Shown here: positions 2,566 to 32,619 of the stretch, in pieces
How the letters are laid out: every line of letters starts with the position of its first letter
Numbering within the stretch: the stretch's first letter is position 1
From: Devosiaceae bacterium MH13
GTDB taxonomy: Bacteria; Pseudomonadota; Alphaproteobacteria; Rhizobiales; MH13
Assembly (NCBI GenBank): GCA_019192585.1
Contig: JAHCMG010000221.1
Coordinates: forward strand, 1-50,491
Direction: 5' to 3'
DNA: 50,491 bases
The notes under the pieces: model-generated
What the model was told of the DNA's origin: nothing
Database searches by the model: none
What the model saw: only the letters and a program-made list of their open reading frames with translations
Position numbers and translations under genes: made by a program

Positions 2566-3600
2566 TCAGGGAACCTGCTCATCAGACCGCAAGAACCGCA
2601 CCGCGACCCCACCGGCATTGGGCGGAGGGGCGGTCAACTCGCTGGTCACCAGCAAGGTTTCTCCCGCCGGCAGCACGCTTTGCGGCGGCTCGACACTCCA
2701 GGCGAACAGCTCTTCGCCCTCGATGCTGACGAGCGCCATGCGGATGGGGGCGACGGGCCTGTCGCGTTCAGACGCGTTGGTCAAAACGCCCTCGATCTCC
2801 ATCACCGTCAGGCCCGCGACGCTTTCGCGGCGCGCGACAAAGCCCGACAGTTCGATGCCGCGCACGTTCACCTCGAGATCCGCCAGCGCATAAAGGCCCG
2901 CCAAATCGGGCACGACCCGCACAACGGTCTCGCGCAGCGGCACCGCAAGCACAGCCACGGCGATCCCGGCAGCAACCAGAACCGGCGGCAGCGCTGCGCG
3001 AGCGGCGCGCCGCACGGGCCCAGGACCGATACGTTTGCTCTTGCTCTTGAGCCGAACCCGCCGCTTCTTGGGATCATTGGGACGTGCCGACGTGCCCACA
3101 GGCCCCGAAGCAACCGTCACCGTGTCGACCGCTGGGCCCTCCCGCGCCAGTCTCTCTGCCTCTTTGCGCTCCCGGTCGCCGCGAATGGCGCGCCACAGCG
3201 CCTTGGAGAAGTTTGGCCGCGACGACGGCGGTGCCTTGTCTTCACCCCAGTCTGATTCAACATGCGCAACGTTGATCTCTTCATCGAGGCCTTCAAAGGC
3301 CTGCTCGGCGAACGCCGCTGAGGTGTCGATGGCTTCGCCTTCGTCGGCCGCCTCTTGGCCCCATTCAACCTCCGCCGAACCCACAAGCTCGTCCATTGCC
3401 GGCTCGGCAGGCGAGGCATCGAAAAGCGGATCAGGTTCCTCGGGCGCGGGGGTCTCCGGCATGGCGGTCCACACATGGGCGCACGAGGGGCAGCGCACCT
3501 TTCGGCCGTTCGGGCCAATAAGGTCATCGGCAACCGCATAGCTTGTCGCGCAGGAGGGGCAGCTTAACTTCAAAGGGCAGGCCGATCCGTGGATGGACAC
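2566..3600 (-). CDS. MJ0042 zinc-ribbon / DUF3426 membrane protein
   Basis: A protein of 344 residues from a GTG at 3600. Two CxxC pairs (C14/C17 and C37/C40) form an N-terminal MJ0042-type zinc ribbon. An acidic, low-complexity linker follows (about 45-170), then a basic stretch, a single membrane helix at about 203-221, and a C-terminal beta-rich DUF3426-like domain (about 225-340) expected outside the cytoplasm. The start is uncertain: an in-frame TTG (3573) lies just before the first CxxC and neither has a good ribosome site. The gene is divergent from ftsE and the shared 156-base intergenic region holds a perfect CtrA-type box. The molecular function is not known. Confidence 0.8.
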   Translation of the reverse strand: MSIHGSACPLKLSCPSCATSYAVADDLIGPNGRKVRCPSCAHVWTAMPETPAPEEPDPLFDASPAEPAMDELVGSAEVEWGQEAADEGEAIDTSAAFAEQAFEGLDEEINVAHVESDWGEDKAPPSSRPNFSKALWRAIRGDRERKEAERLAREGPAVDTVTVASGPVGTSARPNDPKKRRVRLKSKSKRIGPGPVRRAARAALPPVLVAAGIAVAVLAVPLRETVVRVVPDLAGLYALADLEVNVRGIELSGFVARRESVAGLTVMEIEGVLTNASERDRPVAPIRMALVSIEGEELFAWSVEPPQSVLPAGETLLVTSELTAPPPNAGGVAVRFLRSDEQVP

Positions 3601-3629
3601 ACTGTCGTCGCACGGTTACAGGCCGAGCG

Positions 3630-3648
3630 TTAATGGGCTGTTAACCAT
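3630..3648. promoter_or_regulatory. Candidate CtrA box, TTAA-N7-TTAACCAT
   Basis: TTAA at 3630-3633, seven bases, then TTAACCAT at 3641-3648. This is a perfect match to the CtrA full-site consensus TTAA-N7-TTAA with the extended TTAACCAT half. It sits between the zinc-ribbon gene (start 3600, minus) and ftsE (start 3757, plus), so it could act on either promoter. Binding is inferred from sequence only. Confidence 0.6.
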
Positions 3649-3756
3649 GACAGGTGCGTGTGGGAGATGGCCAAGCTGGCGCCCGTTTTGGCGAGCAAAG
3701 CTGTAACAGCTCGGTGCCCGAGCCGTTAAACAGCACCATTGGGAGATCAAAGCAGC

Positions 3757-4416
3757 GTGCTGGTGTTGGAAAATGTTGGCTTGCGCTACGACAGCGGACC
3801 GGAGGTGCTCTCCGATCTGTCGTTCGCCATTGAGCCGCGCAGCTTTCAATACCTCACCGGCCCCTCCGGTGCCGGCAAAACCTCCATGTTGAAGCTTATG
3901 TCGCTGGCGATGCGCCCCAGCCGCGGCGTGGTGACGGCCTTCGGCAAGAACACGGCCCGCTCCGGCTCGCGCGACATCCCCGCGCTGCGACAACGCATCG
4001 GCGTTGTCTTCCAAGATTTTCGCCTCCTCGATCATCTGACCACGTTCGAGAACGTCGCCCTGCCCTTGCGGGTTCAGGGAAAGTCGGAGGCAAGCTACGC
4101 CGCCGACGTCAAGGAACTGCTGCGCTGGGTGGGCCTTGGCGAACGCATGTACGCCATGCCGCCGGTGCTCTCAGGCGGTGAAAAACAGCGCGCCGCCATC
4201 GCCCGCGCCGTGATCGGCCAGCCAGACCTGCTGCTCGCCGACGAGCCGACCGGCAATGTGGACCCCCAATTGGGCCGGCGGCTGCTGCGCCTGTTTGTCG
4301 AGCTTAACAAGCTTGGCACATCGATCGTCATCGCCACGCACGACGTTTTGCTGATGCAGCAGTTCCAGGCGCGTCGCCTCGTGCTGCATGACCGCCAGGT
4401 GCAGATCTATGACTAG
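3757..4416 (+). CDS. ftsE: Cell division ATP-binding protein FtsE
   Basis: A 219-residue ABC ATPase. Walker A is at 35-43 (GPSGAGKTS), Q-loop Q86, signature LSGGE at 138-142, Walker B LLLADEP with D162/E163, and switch His H195. FtsE pairs with FtsX and couples ATP hydrolysis at the septum to activation of periplasmic murein hydrolases, usually through EnvC. The GTG at 3757 is preferred: GGGAG lies about 11 bases upstream and the protein then begins (M)[10 protein letters not shown] as in other FtsE proteins. A TTG at 3739 has no ribosome site. The gene overlaps ftsX by 8 bases, so the two are co-transcribed. A CtrA-like box lies about 110 bases upstream, and an EnvC homologue is encoded at 31221-32558. 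Confidence 0.95.
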
Positions 4417-5461
4417 CGTCAGCGATCTCGACCGCGCCGCCGCAGGCCGCACTGGGCACGTGCGGCCCACGCGCGTGTCAGCCACCGGGCGCAGCCGGAA
4501 AGCACCGCGAAAGCCCGGCGAAGAGCGCCGCTCGATCCTGCGGCAAGGCGGCGACGACAAAGCCCCCAGCCCAATCGTGCCCGCCCGCTCGATTGCCGGC
4601 AACGCGCTGATGCTGGTGATCGCCATCATGGGCTGCCTCGCATGCCTATCGGTGGGCGCGGTCACCCTGGTGGACCGGGCCGCCAGCGACTGGAGCGCCG
4701 ATATCGGCCGCGAACTAACGATCGAGGTCACCACCAGCGATCCATCAAACGTGGAGGCGCGGCTCGAAGCCGCCGCGGCACTGGCAAGGGTGACCCCAGG
4801 CATCGGAAGCGTCGACATTATCGATGAAGCCGAGACCCGCGCGCTTCTTGAACCCTGGCTCGGCACGCTGGCGAGCGAAACAGCGATCAGCGAACTGCCC
4901 GTCCCCCGCCTCATCGCGCTGACGGTCAGCGACCGATCAGCGCTCGACCTGGCTGCCCTCCAAGCCGGCCTCGATGCCGATGCCCCGGGCGCCACGGTGG
5001 ATGATCACCGCTTGTGGACCGATCAGATGGCGCGCATGGCCCGCGCCATGGTGCTCGGCGGCCTGTTCATCTTGGCGCTCGTCCTGTCGGCAACCATCCT
5101 GTGCGTGATCTTCGCGACGCGCGCCGCCATGGCCGGCAACAAAGACGTGGTCGATGTTCTGCACTTTGTTGGCGCCAGCCACGCTTTCATCGCAGGCCAG
5201 TTCCAAAGGCATTTTTTGATGCTCGGCATGCGCGGCGGCTTAATCGGCGGCGTGGCCGCGATCGTGATCTTCCTTGTCTTCCAGGTTTGGGTCGGCGCGC
5301 GGCGCGGCGCGGCAGAAGCCGTGCAAGTGGAAGCGCTGATCGGCTCACCGGCCCTGGGGCTTGAAGGCTATGCCGGCTGCGCTTTGGTGGTGTTCCTCAT
5401 CGCCTTTTTGACGGCGGCCACCTCGCGCATCACCGTCCGGCGTTTCCTAAGGGGCCTTTGA
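4409..5461 (+). CDS. ftsX: Cell division protein FtsX
   Basis: A 350-residue membrane subunit of the FtsEX complex. The N-terminal tail is about 60 residues, basic and cytoplasmic. Four helices fall at about 64-88, 214-238, 272-295 and 322-338. The large loop between helix 1 and helix 2 (about 91-205) is the extracytoplasmic domain that contacts EnvC-type activators in characterised systems. The start ATG at 4409 lies inside the end of ftsE (8-base overlap); an in-frame ATG at 4388 would lengthen the overlap and is less likely. The unusually polar, basic N-terminal extension is typical of alphaproteobacterial FtsX. Confidence 0.93.
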   Translation: MTSVSDLDRAAAGRTGHVRPTRVSATGRSRKAPRKPGEERRSILRQGGDDKAPSPIVPARSIAGNALMLVIAIMGCLACLSVGAVTLVDRAASDWSADIGRELTIEVTTSDPSNVEARLEAAAALARVTPGIGSVDIIDEAETRALLEPWLGTLASETAISELPVPRLIALTVSDRSALDLAALQAGLDADAPGATVDDHRLWTDQMARMARAMVLGGLFILALVLSATILCVIFATRAAMAGNKDVVDVLHFVGASHAFIAGQFQRHFLMLGMRGGLIGGVAAIVIFLVFQVWVGARRGAAEAVQVEALIGSPALGLEGYAGCALVVFLIAFLTAATSRITVRRFLRGL

Positions 5462-5545: not shown

Positions 5546-5553
5546 TTAACCAT
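5546..5553 (+). promoter_or_regulatory. TTAACCAT half-site (possible CtrA half-box)
   Basis: TTAACCAT occurs once in the 165-base gap between ftsX and the ydcF-like gene, about 75 bases before that gene's ATG. It equals the extended half of the ftsE box, but no second TTAA lies 11 bases away. It could be a weak CtrA half-site or chance. The rest of the gap shows nothing recognisable. Confidence 0.25.
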
Positions 5554-5626: not shown

Positions 5627-6268
5627 ATGAAGACGCCGCCGTCCAACACGCTGACATTGGACCGCCGACGGACCGCCCGACGGTTCCGCGCCATGCGGCT
5701 GGCGCCGCTCGCCTTGGTCATCGCGTTCGTTTGGGCCGGCATCGCCTTTAGCCAATTCGTCGGCACAATCGACGAGATGCGGGCGCCGCAAAGCCCACGG
5801 GCCGATGGTATCGTGGTTGTCACCGGCGGCTCAGCGCGCATCGAAGTGGCGATGGAGCTGCTCAGCGCCGGCGCCGCGGAGCGCCTGCTGATCTCCGGGG
5901 TCCATGAGGATACCGACGTCTCGATGCTCATCGAACGCACAAGCTCCGACCCCGACCTGTTTGACTGCTGCGTTGAGCTCGACAGGGCCGCCCTCGACAC
6001 CGTCGGCAACGCCCGCGAAACGGCAGCCTGGGCGCGTGACAATGGCTTTGGTTCGCTTCTGGTGGTCACCAGCGCCTACCACATGCCCCGCACGCTGCGT
6101 GAGATCGAGGCCGTGCTACCCGGCACGCAGTTGGTCGCCTTCCCCATCGATCCGCAAGCCCCCGATCATCACGCCGGATCGGCTGACGAACGCACCTGGC
6201 CGCTCTCGCTGATGGCGCGCGAATTTGTGAAGCTGCAACTGACTAACTTGCGGCACCTGTTGGGCTGA
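5627..6268 (+). CDS. YdcF/SanA-like DUF218 membrane protein
   Basis: A 213-residue protein with one N-terminal membrane helix (about 25-44) after a basic start, so the DUF218 domain is probably extracytoplasmic. Family motifs are visible: VVVTGG at 63-68, the TVGNARET segment at 125-132, and TSAYHMPR at 148-155. E. coli relatives YdcF and SanA are linked to envelope permeability; the reaction is not established, and a nucleotide-like ligand is suspected from the fold. It follows ftsX and precedes plsC in the same direction, an arrangement common in Rhizobiales. It has its own 165-base upstream region, so separate transcription from ftsEX is possible. Confidence 0.85.
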   Translation: MKTPPSNTLTLDRRRTARRFRAMRLAPLALVIAFVWAGIAFSQFVGTIDEMRAPQSPRADGIVVVTGGSARIEVAMELLSAGAAERLLISGVHEDTDVSMLIERTSSDPDLFDCCVELDRAALDTVGNARETAAWARDNGFGSLLVVTSAYHMPRTLREIEAVLPGTQLVAFPIDPQAPDHHAGSADERTWPLSLMAREFVKLQLTNLRHLLG

Positions 6269-22643: not shown

Positions 22644-22659
22644 TTAAGCAATCGTTAAC
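22644..22659. promoter_or_regulatory. Candidate CtrA box, TTAA-N7-TTAAC
   Basis: TTAA (22644-22647), seven bases, TTAAC (22655-22659), set in a larger inverted repeat ACGTTAA-N7-TTAACGT. It is a perfect CtrA-consensus match about 67 bases upstream of the small unknown gene at 22726 and about 95 bases past the phaR stop. A GC-rich hairpin follows immediately (22662-22676). Confidence 0.5.
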
Positions 22660-28483: not shown

Positions 28484-29716
28484 CTATTGGTCGAACCGCA
28501 CCAGCGAGGACACGGGCACTAAAGCGATTCCTTTGGCAGCAAGATTGTTAGACCAGTCTTCCAGCAACGAAATGGTGACAGGCAGCGCCGAGGCAACACC
28601 AATGGCGGTTCCACGCTCGCGCGCGATGGCTTCGAGCTGCGAGAGCCGGTCGACGATGGAGTCTTCGTCCACCCGTGCATCAAGGACCACATCGGCCCGG
28701 ATAACGGGTTGGCCTTCGGAGCCCAGCGACCCCATGCGCGAGCGGGCCGAGCGCCCATCGTCAAGCACCATCAGCCCGCGGCCGATAGCGTCTTCCATCA
28801 CTGGCAAGACCGCCTGATCGACCGACGCGAACCGGGCGCCCATATAGTTCATGAACCCAATAGGCGTGCTGACCCGCGACAGCGCCCAATGCATGCGCTC
28901 GAGGTTGGCCTCGGCATCGAGCGAGGTCAGGAGCGTGTGCGGCCCTGGATCATTGTTGGGATAGTCGAACGGCTCCATGGGGATCTCGACAAGATACTCA
29001 TGCCCCGCGGCGCGGGCGCGCGCGGTCCACCGTTGCAGCGAGAAGCCATAGGGGGCGAACGACAAAGTCGTCGCCGGCGGCAGACGGGTGATCACCTCGC
29101 TTGTGCGCGTCTGGCTCATCCCCAGCCCGCCGACCACAAGCGCGATGCGCGGCTGACCGGGCGCAACGGTCCCCGCCTCAAGCGGCCGCGCATACACATC
29201 AAGCGCGCGTTCGCCACTGGGGCCGCGCACAGGAATGAAACTGTCAGCATCGAACCGTGCGACGAGGCCCGCATCAGGCGTCGAGGGCAGCCCGCCTTGG
29301 GCATCAAAGCGGGGGCCTGAGGAGGTGCGCCGCGCCAGCGCATCGGGCGATGCCGGCTCGCGCACAGAGCTACGCGGCACCTCGATGACCCGCGGGCCAT
29401 CATCGCTGGCAAATCCATCCTGGCCCGGGCGGATCAGCGCCGGCCCGAGCGGGTCCTCGCCGCTTGCCTCATCGTCCGTTGCTTGCGGGTCATTGCCCTG
29501 GATAGGCGCCATGGCGATAGGTTCGCCGCCGAGCTCATCATCGACGGTGAAGACCCACGCGCCGACCCCGACGAGCGCCAGCAACAGGACCGCCGCCCCG
29601 ATCCGCGTGAACCAGCGGCTGACCGCGCCAAGCAGTGACACCAGCGCGCCGCCACCGCCTTTCGCTTTGCGAGGCCGGATGGGTGTGTGCAGATCAGATA
29701 CGGTGCTGGTTGCCAT
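28484..29716 (-). CDS. Divergent polysaccharide deacetylase family protein
   Basis: A 410-residue protein with one N-terminal helix (about 37-57), a low-complexity periplasmic linker (about 70-180) and a C-terminal NodB-like domain of the divergent deacetylase family (RIALVVGGLGMS, then LPPATTLSFAPYG, HEYLVEIPMEPFDYPNNDPGPH split over 230-260, and GFMNYMGARFAS). The usual NodB zinc triad is not obvious, as is usual for this group. E. coli YibQ is the best-known relative and is encoded beside envC, matching the order here. ATG 29716 is preferred over a TTG at 29752. A perfect CtrA-type box lies about 110 bases upstream. Confidence 0.85.
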   Translation of the reverse strand: MATSTVSDLHTPIRPRKAKGGGGALVSLLGAVSRWFTRIGAAVLLLALVGVGAWVFTVDDELGGEPIAMAPIQGNDPQATDDEASGEDPLGPALIRPGQDGFASDDGPRVIEVPRSSVREPASPDALARRTSSGPRFDAQGGLPSTPDAGLVARFDADSFIPVRGPSGERALDVYARPLEAGTVAPGQPRIALVVGGLGMSQTRTSEVITRLPPATTLSFAPYGFSLQRWTARARAAGHEYLVEIPMEPFDYPNNDPGPHTLLTSLDAEANLERMHWALSRVSTPIGFMNYMGARFASVDQAVLPVMEDAIGRGLMVLDDGRSARSRMGSLGSEGQPVIRADVVLDARVDEDSIVDRLSQLEAIARERGTAIGVASALPVTISLLEDWSNNLAAKGIALVPVSSLVRFDQ

Positions 29717-29789
29717 GGCCGTCCAGGGACGTGTGTTCGCTTTGGCCTTCAAGCGTTTTCTGGTCCCGGTGTTACCGGAGCACCAGACG

Positions 29790-29826
29790 CAAAAAAGCCG
29801 ACGCCCCTGTGTAGAGCGTCGGCTTT
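29790..29826 (-). terminator. Rho-independent terminator after ctpA
   Basis: A perfect 9-bp stem (29796-29804 with 29816-29824) and, on the minus strand, a run of six T directly after it. It lies 64 bases past the ctpA stop, so envC-ctpA is probably one transcript separate from the deacetylase-rppH pair. Confidence 0.82.
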
Positions 29827-29843
29827 AAGCGTTGGTTAACCAT
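29825..29843. promoter_or_regulatory. Candidate CtrA box, TTAA-N7-TTAACCAT
   Basis: TTAA (29825-29828), seven bases, TTAACCAT (29836-29843): the same extended form as the ftsE box. It lies between ctpA and the deacetylase gene and touches the base of the ctpA terminator stem. A promoter at the box would start transcription near the terminator's end and drive the deacetylase gene. Its position is unusual, so function is less certain than for the ftsE box. Confidence 0.45.
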
Positions 29844-29889: not shown

Positions 29890-31224
29890 TTAGTTCGGCA
29901 GCGGCGCGTTTGGGTCCGGCGGGAACGCCGCATGGGTCTGCTCCCCGCGCAGCAGCTGCAGCGCATACTGAAGCTGCGTATCAAGCTCCGCGTCCGCCGG
30001 CACATAGACCGACGACCCTGACCGCTCCACCTCGTCCTCATTGGAGAGGTGGCCATCGAGCGAGGCTTCGCCACCGGGGGTGTCGAGACCGACAAGCTCT
30101 TCAGGCAGGTTCTCTTGCAGGACCTCGATGTCCGGGTCGACACCGCGCGCCTGGATCGACCGGCCCGACGGCGTGTAGTAGCGCGCCGTGGTCAGACGGA
30201 CCGCCGAGTTCGACGACATCGGGATCACCGACTGCACCGAGCCTTTGCCGAAGCTCAGCGAGCCCACGAGCGTGGCGCGGCGATGGTCTTGCAGGGCACC
30301 GGCAACGATCTCCGCTGCCGAGGCTGAACCACCATTGATCAGCACCACCACCGGCAGGCCGCCAACCAGATCGCCCGACCGGGCGTTGTAGCGGCGGGTC
30401 TCAGAAGCGTCGCGGCCGCGGATCGAAACGATCTCGCCACGATCTAGGAACGCGTCCGACACTTCCAGCGCCTGGTTGACGAGGCCACCGGGATTGTTGC
30501 GCAGATCAAGCACATAGCCTGTCAGCTCGATATCGGCGGCGTCCGCTTCCTCGTTGAGGTCGATGATGGCCTGGTCCAGGCCGTCAAACGTCTGCCCAGC
30601 AAACTGGGTGACGCGGATATAGCCGATCTCGCCTTCAAGCCGGCTGCGGACCGAAGCGATGCGGATATTGTCACGCTGCAGCGAGACTTCGAAATCATCG
30701 GTGCCTTCGCGGCGCACGGTCACGGTGATCTCCGTGCCGACAATGCCGCGCATGCGCTCAACGGCGTCCGCCAGCGTCATGCCCTGCACGTCTTCGCCAT
30801 CGAGCGCGACGATCAGATCGTTGGCCAAAATGCCCGCGCGCGCGGCTGGCGTTTCATCGATCGGGGAGACGACTTTCACAAAGCCATCTTCCATCGTGAC
30901 CTGAATGCCCAGGCCACCAAACTCACCGCGCGTCTGCTCTTGGATCTCTTCAAAGGCATCGGGGCCGAGATAGGCCGAGTGCGGATCAAGCGACTCTAGC
31001 ATGCCCGACAGCGCGCTCTCGATCAGCTCGGCTTCATCTTGCGGCTCGACATAATCGTTGAGCACGCGCTCGAACACATCGCCGAACAGCTTGAGCTGAT
31101 TGAATGTCTCCGCACCTGCCTGCGCTTGCGCCCCAAGCGGGCCAAGCCGGTAGTGCGTCACGCCGAAGGTCACCGCGATGCCAAGCACCAGGCCCAGCGC
31201 GAAGACCGGCAATTTTTTCATCAT
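29890..31224 (-). CDS. ctpA: Carboxy-terminal processing protease (S41 family)
   Basis: A 444-residue periplasmic protease. The N-terminal signal/anchor is at about 4-22, a PDZ domain at about 98-175, and the catalytic Ser/Lys dyad S302 (NGGSASAAEI) and K327 (SFGKGSVQ). A C-terminal acidic tail follows. Such proteases trim or degrade envelope proteins, including peptidoglycan hydrolases. The start overlaps the envC stop by four bases (ATGA); a second ATG is the next codon, so initiation at either is possible. EnvC-CtpA pairing is conserved in many Proteobacteria. Confidence 0.94.
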   Translation of the reverse strand: MMKKLPVFALGLVLGIAVTFGVTHYRLGPLGAQAQAGAETFNQLKLFGDVFERVLNDYVEPQDEAELIESALSGMLESLDPHSAYLGPDAFEEIQEQTRGEFGGLGIQVTMEDGFVKVVSPIDETPAARAGILANDLIVALDGEDVQGMTLADAVERMRGIVGTEITVTVRREGTDDFEVSLQRDNIRIASVRSRLEGEIGYIRVTQFAGQTFDGLDQAIIDLNEEADAADIELTGYVLDLRNNPGGLVNQALEVSDAFLDRGEIVSIRGRDASETRRYNARSGDLVGGLPVVVLINGGSASAAEIVAGALQDHRRATLVGSLSFGKGSVQSVIPMSSNSAVRLTTARYYTPSGRSIQARGVDPDIEVLQENLPEELVGLDTPGGEASLDGHLSNEDEVERSGSSVYVPADAELDTQLQYALQLLRGEQTHAAFPPDPNAPLPN

Positions 31225-32558
31225 CCTTCAGTCCCTTGACTGTCTGTTTCCGCCCACCATGCCGAAGAATCGATAGGACGTCCATCCTCTCGCAACTCGA
31301 CAAACAACACAGGTTGCGGCGCGCCTTGTGAGCCGTCCGCAAGAACCGTCGAACCCCGCTCTCCCATGATCGCGATAGGTTCGCCCATCAGCACAAACTG
31401 ACCCAATGCGACATTTATGCGGCTCATGCCCGCAAGGATCATTCGGTAGCCATCGCCGACATCGATAATGACCACCTGGCCGTAGGTCCGAAAGGGCCCC
31501 GCATACAGCACCCAGCCATCGGCTGGTGCGATGACCCGGGCGCCGGCCCGGGTGGCGATGTGGGTTCCCTGACTTGGGATTCCAAATCGGTCTTCATCGC
31601 CGAAATTCAACAGTTCCACCCCGCGTACGGGCCGCTGCACCAGCCCTTGGCCGCTGCCAAACGCGAACGCTGGCGCCAGCCGATCGGCATCGCGCAGCAG
31701 CGCCAGCGCCTCGTCATCGCTGGCCTCGGGTGCTTGCTCTGCCGCCGCTTCAGCGTCCGCAATCGCCTGCCTGACGCTGTCGAGCTCGGCTTCAAGGTCG
31801 GACAGAAGCGCCTCGAGCGAACTGGCTTCGCTGGCCAGAAGCGCCGCGCGTTCGCGCTCGCGTTCGAGGACCGATTGGTTCTCTTCACGAAGTCGTGAGC
31901 GCTCGGTCAAGACGAGCTCAATGCGGTCTTCCTCTTCGGCGAGCGCTTCCGCATCGGCCAGCAAAACGCCCAGCGCTTCATCGAGCGCAGCCCGTGCATC
32001 GGCCAGCGCGGAGAGGTCTGCGGCCAAAGCGCGCGATTCCGCCTCAAGCTCTGGAAAGGCGACACCAAGAAGCAAGGCCGAGCGGACCGACCGCAACGCA
32101 TCGCCTGGCGACACCGCGAGCGCCGGCGGCGGCGCACGGCCAACCCGTACCATGGCGGACAGAAGCGCAGCGATACGCACGCGCTGCGCGTTAAGCGACT
32201 GTTCGAGCCCGCGCTCATTGTCTTCCAGCGTCGCGATGCGCTGGCGCTGGATCTGGATGCGGGTCGCAAGGCTCTCGGCCTGGCTGGTGGTCCGGATCAG
32301 AAGATCGGTCAGCTCGCCAACATCGGCGTCGATCTCGGCAAGCTCCGCACGCAGCATCGCCTGGCGGGCTTCGGCGGCGGAGATATTGGCACGCAGCCGT
32401 TCGAGCGCATCGGCGGCTACGTCCCGCTCTTGTTCAAGCGTATCGCCGCGCCCGCCCTCGCCGCCCTCTTCGGCGGGCACAAGCCGCTCGGCTGAATCCT
32501 GCGCAAGCGCCGGCACGCAAAGCAAAAGCGAAACAAGAAGGATGCAGACGCTGCGCAT
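31221..32558 (-). CDS. envC: EnvC-like murein hydrolase activator (degenerate LytM)
   Basis: A 445-residue secreted protein. The signal peptide is at 1-19 (cleavage after ALA-Q), a long coiled coil at about 40-290 rich in Glu/Arg/Ala, and a C-terminal M23/LytM domain at about 320-430. The zinc ligands are lost: the usual HxxxD region reads GTHIATRAGARV and the HxH region reads PVLFVELRE. Like E. coli EnvC it should therefore activate amidases and not cut peptidoglycan itself. FtsX binds the EnvC coiled coil in characterised systems, and ftsEX lies in the same window. First gene of envC-ctpA, with a near-CtrA box upstream. Confidence 0.9.
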   Translation of the reverse strand: MRSVCILLVSLLLCVPALAQDSAERLVPAEEGGEGGRGDTLEQERDVAADALERLRANISAAEARQAMLRAELAEIDADVGELTDLLIRTTSQAESLATRIQIQRQRIATLEDNERGLEQSLNAQRVRIAALLSAMVRVGRAPPPALAVSPGDALRSVRSALLLGVAFPELEAESRALAADLSALADARAALDEALGVLLADAEALAEEEDRIELVLTERSRLREENQSVLERERERAALLASEASSLEALLSDLEAELDSVRQAIADAEAAAEQAPEASDDEALALLRDADRLAPAFAFGSGQGLVQRPVRGVELLNFGDEDRFGIPSQGTHIATRAGARVIAPADGWVLYAGPFRTYGQVVIIDVGDGYRMILAGMSRINVALGQFVLMGEPIAIMGERGSTVLADGSQGAPQPVLFVELREDGRPIDSSAWWAETDSQGTEG

Positions 32559-32601: not shown

Positions 32602-32619
32602 CTAACCATTCGTTAACCA
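32602..32619. promoter_or_regulatory. Near-match CtrA box upstream of envC
   Basis: CTAA (32602-32605), seven bases, TTAACCA (32613-32619): one mismatch from TTAA-N7-TTAA. Its near edge is 44 bases upstream of the envC ATG, within the 183-base divergent gap, so it could serve either envC-ctpA or the membrane-protein gene on the plus strand. Confidence 0.4.

Follow-up and report, generated by a model that had tools for sequence, protein, structure and literature searches.

The 50,491-nucleotide stretch of Devosiaceae bacterium MH13 DNA analysed here (the window) contained, between a putative ZitP-family polarity gene and ftsEX, a 19-base motif that is probably a genuine CtrA-binding operator, placed in the regulatory region shared by zitP and ftsEX. 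The locus is laid out as follows:

2566–3573, minus strand: putative ZitP-family gene, with an N-terminal MJ0042 zinc ribbon and one hydrophobic stretch (TTG start at 3573; alternative GTG at 3600)
3625–3651, plus strand: conserved core surrounding the box; three congeners agree at 25 of 27 positions
3630–3648, plus strand: full, extended CtrA box, TTAA-N7-TTAACCAT, its extended half facing ftsE
3757–4416, plus strand: ftsE (GTG start, matching that of congeners in the alignment; a longer ORF begins at TTG 3739)
4409–5461, plus strand: ftsX, following ftsE

On the plus strand, positions 3630–3648 of the window read TTAATGGGCTGTTAACCAT, exactly the extended CtrA box that the original prediction had placed there. 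Its non-coding location upstream of ftsEX was borne out as well: the gap between the zitP-family gene and ftsE covers 3574–3756 (183 bp, with limits set by the congener-supported start codons GTG 3757 of ftsE and TTG 3573 of the divergent gene) and lies directly upstream of ftsE. The zitP/ftsE promoter region contains the TTAA-N7-TTAA(C) full-site motif expected of CtrA-regulated promoters. Neither a terminator nor a sigma-70-like promoter was recognised there, and the want of such a promoter counts against the operator reading. The window contains three copies of the core TTAAN7TTAA, where 0.01 would be expected, and the whole genome (3.16 Mb) has it in 17 places, compared with six for the reversed control; the longer TTAAN7TTAACCAT was found five times in the genome and zero times with the reversed control. 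A search of viral contigs for the exact 19-mer returned zero matches. The third TTAA-N7-TTAA of the window, at 22644–22658, lies downstream of a PhaR-like gene, and the same 15 bases, then followed by CCAT, are found in a congener (G001:C140:4293). A lone TTAACCAT at 5546–5553 precedes a DUF218 gene (5627–6268) by about 75 bases.

The regulator whose presence the original prediction presupposed is encoded in the genome. Searches with Caulobacter CtrA and with CcrM as queries gave a CtrA orthologue at G000:C179:8839–9519, which shares 82% identity with Caulobacter CtrA over residues 1–227 (the whole length) and is nearly identical to it in the C-terminal DNA-binding half, together with a CcrM-like gene. 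Other boxes in the genome adjoin flgB, flgI, flhA/flbD, tad pilus genes, tolQ and a cpaM-like gene, all typical CtrA-type targets; the flagellar, tad pilus and tolQ neighbours are what a CtrA regulon would be expected to include. At tolQ, the CtrA-type box (G000:C301:1976; around position 1477 of locus L164) precedes the Tol-Pal genes, in the interval that separates tolQ from a YbgC-like thioesterase gene.

The original test was whether the box stays conserved against drifting flanks in related genomes, and in close relatives the alignments agree. Among three congeneric species (G000, G002 and G003), 18 of its 19 positions are invariant; invariance falls to 12 of 51 positions on the side of zitP and to 8 of 70 over the remaining leader, and the best 19-base stretch outside the box reaches 9 of 19. 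A further member of the family (G004) keeps TTAA-N7-TTAA with both halves and their spacing and differs in the spacer, and the fourth congener (G001, with an assembly 78% complete) gave no ftsE match.

The same pattern extends across the order, represented by 137 distinct ftsE upstream regions, the named ones being Hyphomicrobiales. Within 200 bases upstream of ftsE, TTAA-N7-TTAA was present in 50 of these 137 loci, which are related by descent and not phylogenetically independent; other spacings (0–6 and 8–20) were found in 0–8 loci each, and shuffled upstream regions gave a mean of 0.6 loci and a maximum of 3. TTAACCAT occurred in 49 of the 137 loci against 0.9 expected. Against the operator reading stand 87 loci that lack an exact full box, though many of them contain half sites. 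Outside the order, 2 of 68 loci from the same class contained the box, near chance and both from one genus; a close CtrA orthologue is encoded in 51 of a set of 68 genomes from outside the order, and a divergent zinc-ribbon gene adjoins ftsE in 51 of 68 loci there. Because the box is at chance level outside the order while the gene pair is common there, the box appears to be a trait restricted to the order, and the zitP-ftsEX pair looks older. The CtrA orthologue and the retention of the box against drifting flanks in relatives and in the order thus both favour the original reading of the box as a site of CtrA regulation; binding, direction, sign and timing at the box are what we infer from these comparisons.

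The divergent gene, originally put forward as a possible division partner, is better described as encoding a putative ZitP-family polarity regulator, which may be a target as much as ftsE. Its product has an N-terminal zinc ribbon (CXXC-X19-CXXC) that matches PF13717/PF13719 and TIGR02098, and in phmmer it matches PDB chain 2nb9 (titled 'uncharacterized protein'; 6e-9), a solved zinc ribbon. DUF3426 was found in 18 of 25 aligned relatives, at E values up to 0.1, while the protein of the window gave no match to it at E<5. Since the MJ0042 zinc ribbon, the 2nb9 match and the DUF3426 of the relatives correspond to the ZitP architecture, the gene was assigned to this family, with its function predicted from domain make-up. 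The neighbouring FtsE scores above the TIGR02673 equivalog cut-off (269.1 versus 264.85 bits), and ftsX is the next gene. In four Rhizobiaceae loci (L115, L126, L144 and L153) and one Mesorhizobium locus (L098), the divergent neighbour of ftsE lacks a recognisable zinc ribbon, although it matches the C-terminal ZitP-family profile; in several lineages (L087, L100, L101, L159 and L162), zitP has apparently been lost from between ftsE and hpt.

Phosphorylated CtrA would bridge both TTAA halves and exert its effect at the −35 region. If the geometry of Caulobacter full sites applies, in which the 5′ base of the box lies about 35–39 bases before the transcription start, the ftsEX transcript would start near 3665–3669 and the zitP transcript near 3605–3609. 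One box could serve both genes, because this geometry fits a transcript in either direction; it may also serve only zitP or only ftsEX. FtsEX, the ZitP-like protein or both would then reach peak expression before division, at the time of CtrA activity. The simplest reading is an operator shared by the two.

It is conceivable, though doubtful, that this is a true CtrA site whose main target is the divergent zitP, with ftsE a mere neighbour. In the order, TTAACCAT points to zitP in 39 loci and to ftsE in 17, and half sites were found in 86 of 101 loci with zitP versus 16 of 34 without detected zitP (p 4e-5), both counts being uncorrected for phylogeny and the 'lost' genes possibly including some that escaped detection through divergence. 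In addition, the zitP transcript as predicted would begin about 32–36 bases before the zitP start codon. However, the extended half in this genome faces ftsE, CtrA is reported on the ftsE promoter in the Brucella passages cited below, and two loci that have lost zitP (L087, from Bartonella, and L060) still have the full box in the ftsE–hpt gap; moreover, zitP loss may simply have deleted the box. The orientation of the full box was rejected as a pointer to the target gene, as it faces ftsE in 22 cases and zitP in 18, with 12 ties.

Rather unlikely is a site at which CtrA represses, or which it occupies without regulatory effect. CtrA can repress where its site overlaps the promoter, as with Caulobacter half sites over the −10 (PMC4287350), and minCD in Sinorhizobium meliloti is an example of CtrA repression (PMC4433202), but full TTAA-N7-TTAA sites in Caulobacter are linked to activation near −35 (PMC4287350). 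An idle site would have its parallel in some ChIP-bound S. meliloti genes, which were not differentially regulated (PMC4433202). Conservation throughout an order argues against it. TTAA can turn up in −35 regions generally, yet a motif arisen by chance, or an AT-rich promoter sequence unrelated to CtrA, is made very unlikely by the order-wide statistics, in that the spacing is specific to 7, shuffles do not reproduce the enrichment, the enrichment vanishes outside the order and the 19-mer is kept against drifting flanks. Equally improbable is a promoter timed by GcrA and CcrM through GANTC methylation, as proposed for Caulobacter ftsE and zitP: a conserved GANTC at Caulobacter ftsE (PMC3708114), the promotion of ZitP expression by GcrA in that species (PMC5182063) and the CcrM-like gene of the present genome would favour it, but GANTC is absent from 3300–4000 of the window, and with the whole gap devoid of the motif such control is unlikely in this genome. 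GANTC enrichment upstream of ftsE was discarded as weak in the order (85 loci versus 72 expected; 113 sites versus 105) and absent in the rest of the class, where the motif is at chance.

A second CtrA-boxed locus lies 26 kb from the first in the window:

28484–29752, minus strand: CpaM-like divergent polysaccharide deacetylase (PF04748), of a domain type similar to the Caulobacter ZitP effector (PMC5182063)
29825–29843, plus strand: TTAAGCGTTGGTTAACCAT, the second full extended CtrA box, in the gap separating ctpA from the CpaM-like gene
29890–31224, minus strand: ctpA, S41 peptidase
31221–32558, minus strand: EnvC/LdpF-like LytM (M23) protein whose N-terminal region is coiled-coil-like, a relative of the FtsEX partner (PMC5607218)

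The EnvC/LdpF-like gene sits upstream of ctpA, and the box at 29825–29843, with part of its flank, is conserved in two congeners (G001 and G002). A near-box with one mismatch at 32602–32616, upstream of the EnvC-like gene, was rejected, being unconserved in congeners. In Caulobacter, LdpF interacts with FtsX (PMC5607218) and CtrA activates cpaM (PMC5182063). The two boxed loci would thus encode two pairs whose Caulobacter counterparts work together, namely FtsEX–LdpF and ZitP–CpaM, which is suggestive. A tentative scenario is that Hyphomicrobiales gained the CtrA operator after the class-wide zitP-ftsEX pair existed, which would have coupled pole organisation (ZitP, and CpaM at the second boxed locus beside envC/ctpA) with septal wall remodelling (FtsEX and an EnvC/LdpF-like partner) and replaced GcrA/CcrM control of the Caulobacter type.

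Among known systems, Caulobacter crescentus ZitP, a PopZ-binding polarity regulator to which the recruitment of the deacetylase-like CpaM is due, shares with the family of the divergent gene an N-terminal zinc ribbon (PF13719), a membrane protein character and, in family members, a DUF3426-type C-terminal region, a comparison of domain make-up alone in which the window protein itself has no detected DUF3426 (PMC5182063). A locus-tag search for Caulobacter zitP adjoining ftsE found nothing. The box has the TTAA-N7-TTAA form of the full CtrA motifs of Caulobacter promoters, which are associated with activation near −35 (PMC4287350); Caulobacter ftsE and zitP are, however, linked to CcrM/GcrA and not to CtrA (PMC3708114, PMC5182063), whereas the gap here has no GANTC. 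On the one hand, passages of PMC2877005 and PMC3616915, citing Bellefontaine 2002, report CtrA binding at the Brucella ftsE promoter, and a predicted TTAA-N7-TTAAC type motif upstream of ftsE is common to S. meliloti, where it lies upstream of the ftsE transcription start (PMC3616915), and Agrobacterium tumefaciens, where ftsE is listed with a putative CtrA box (PMC7003649). On the other hand, ChIP-seq and arrays in S. meliloti did not place the Fts genes or complex under CtrA control (PMC4433202). As cited there, the Brucella abortus ftsE promoter site agrees with the present one in regulator family, gene and order; binding is reported for it, whereas the site here is a candidate predicted from sequence. 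Since the box is common to ftsE and a putative ZitP-family polarity gene, experiments crediting or excluding ftsE should consider both directions. Our results add a comparative case for CtrA control of a late division complex in one order, in which Brucella binding and S. meliloti ChIP-seq conflict. CtrA control of ftsE being already known from Brucella, the present site would be a well-supported further example, and what it adds is the order-wide extent of the box, its apparent restriction to the order and the probable ZitP identity of the partner.
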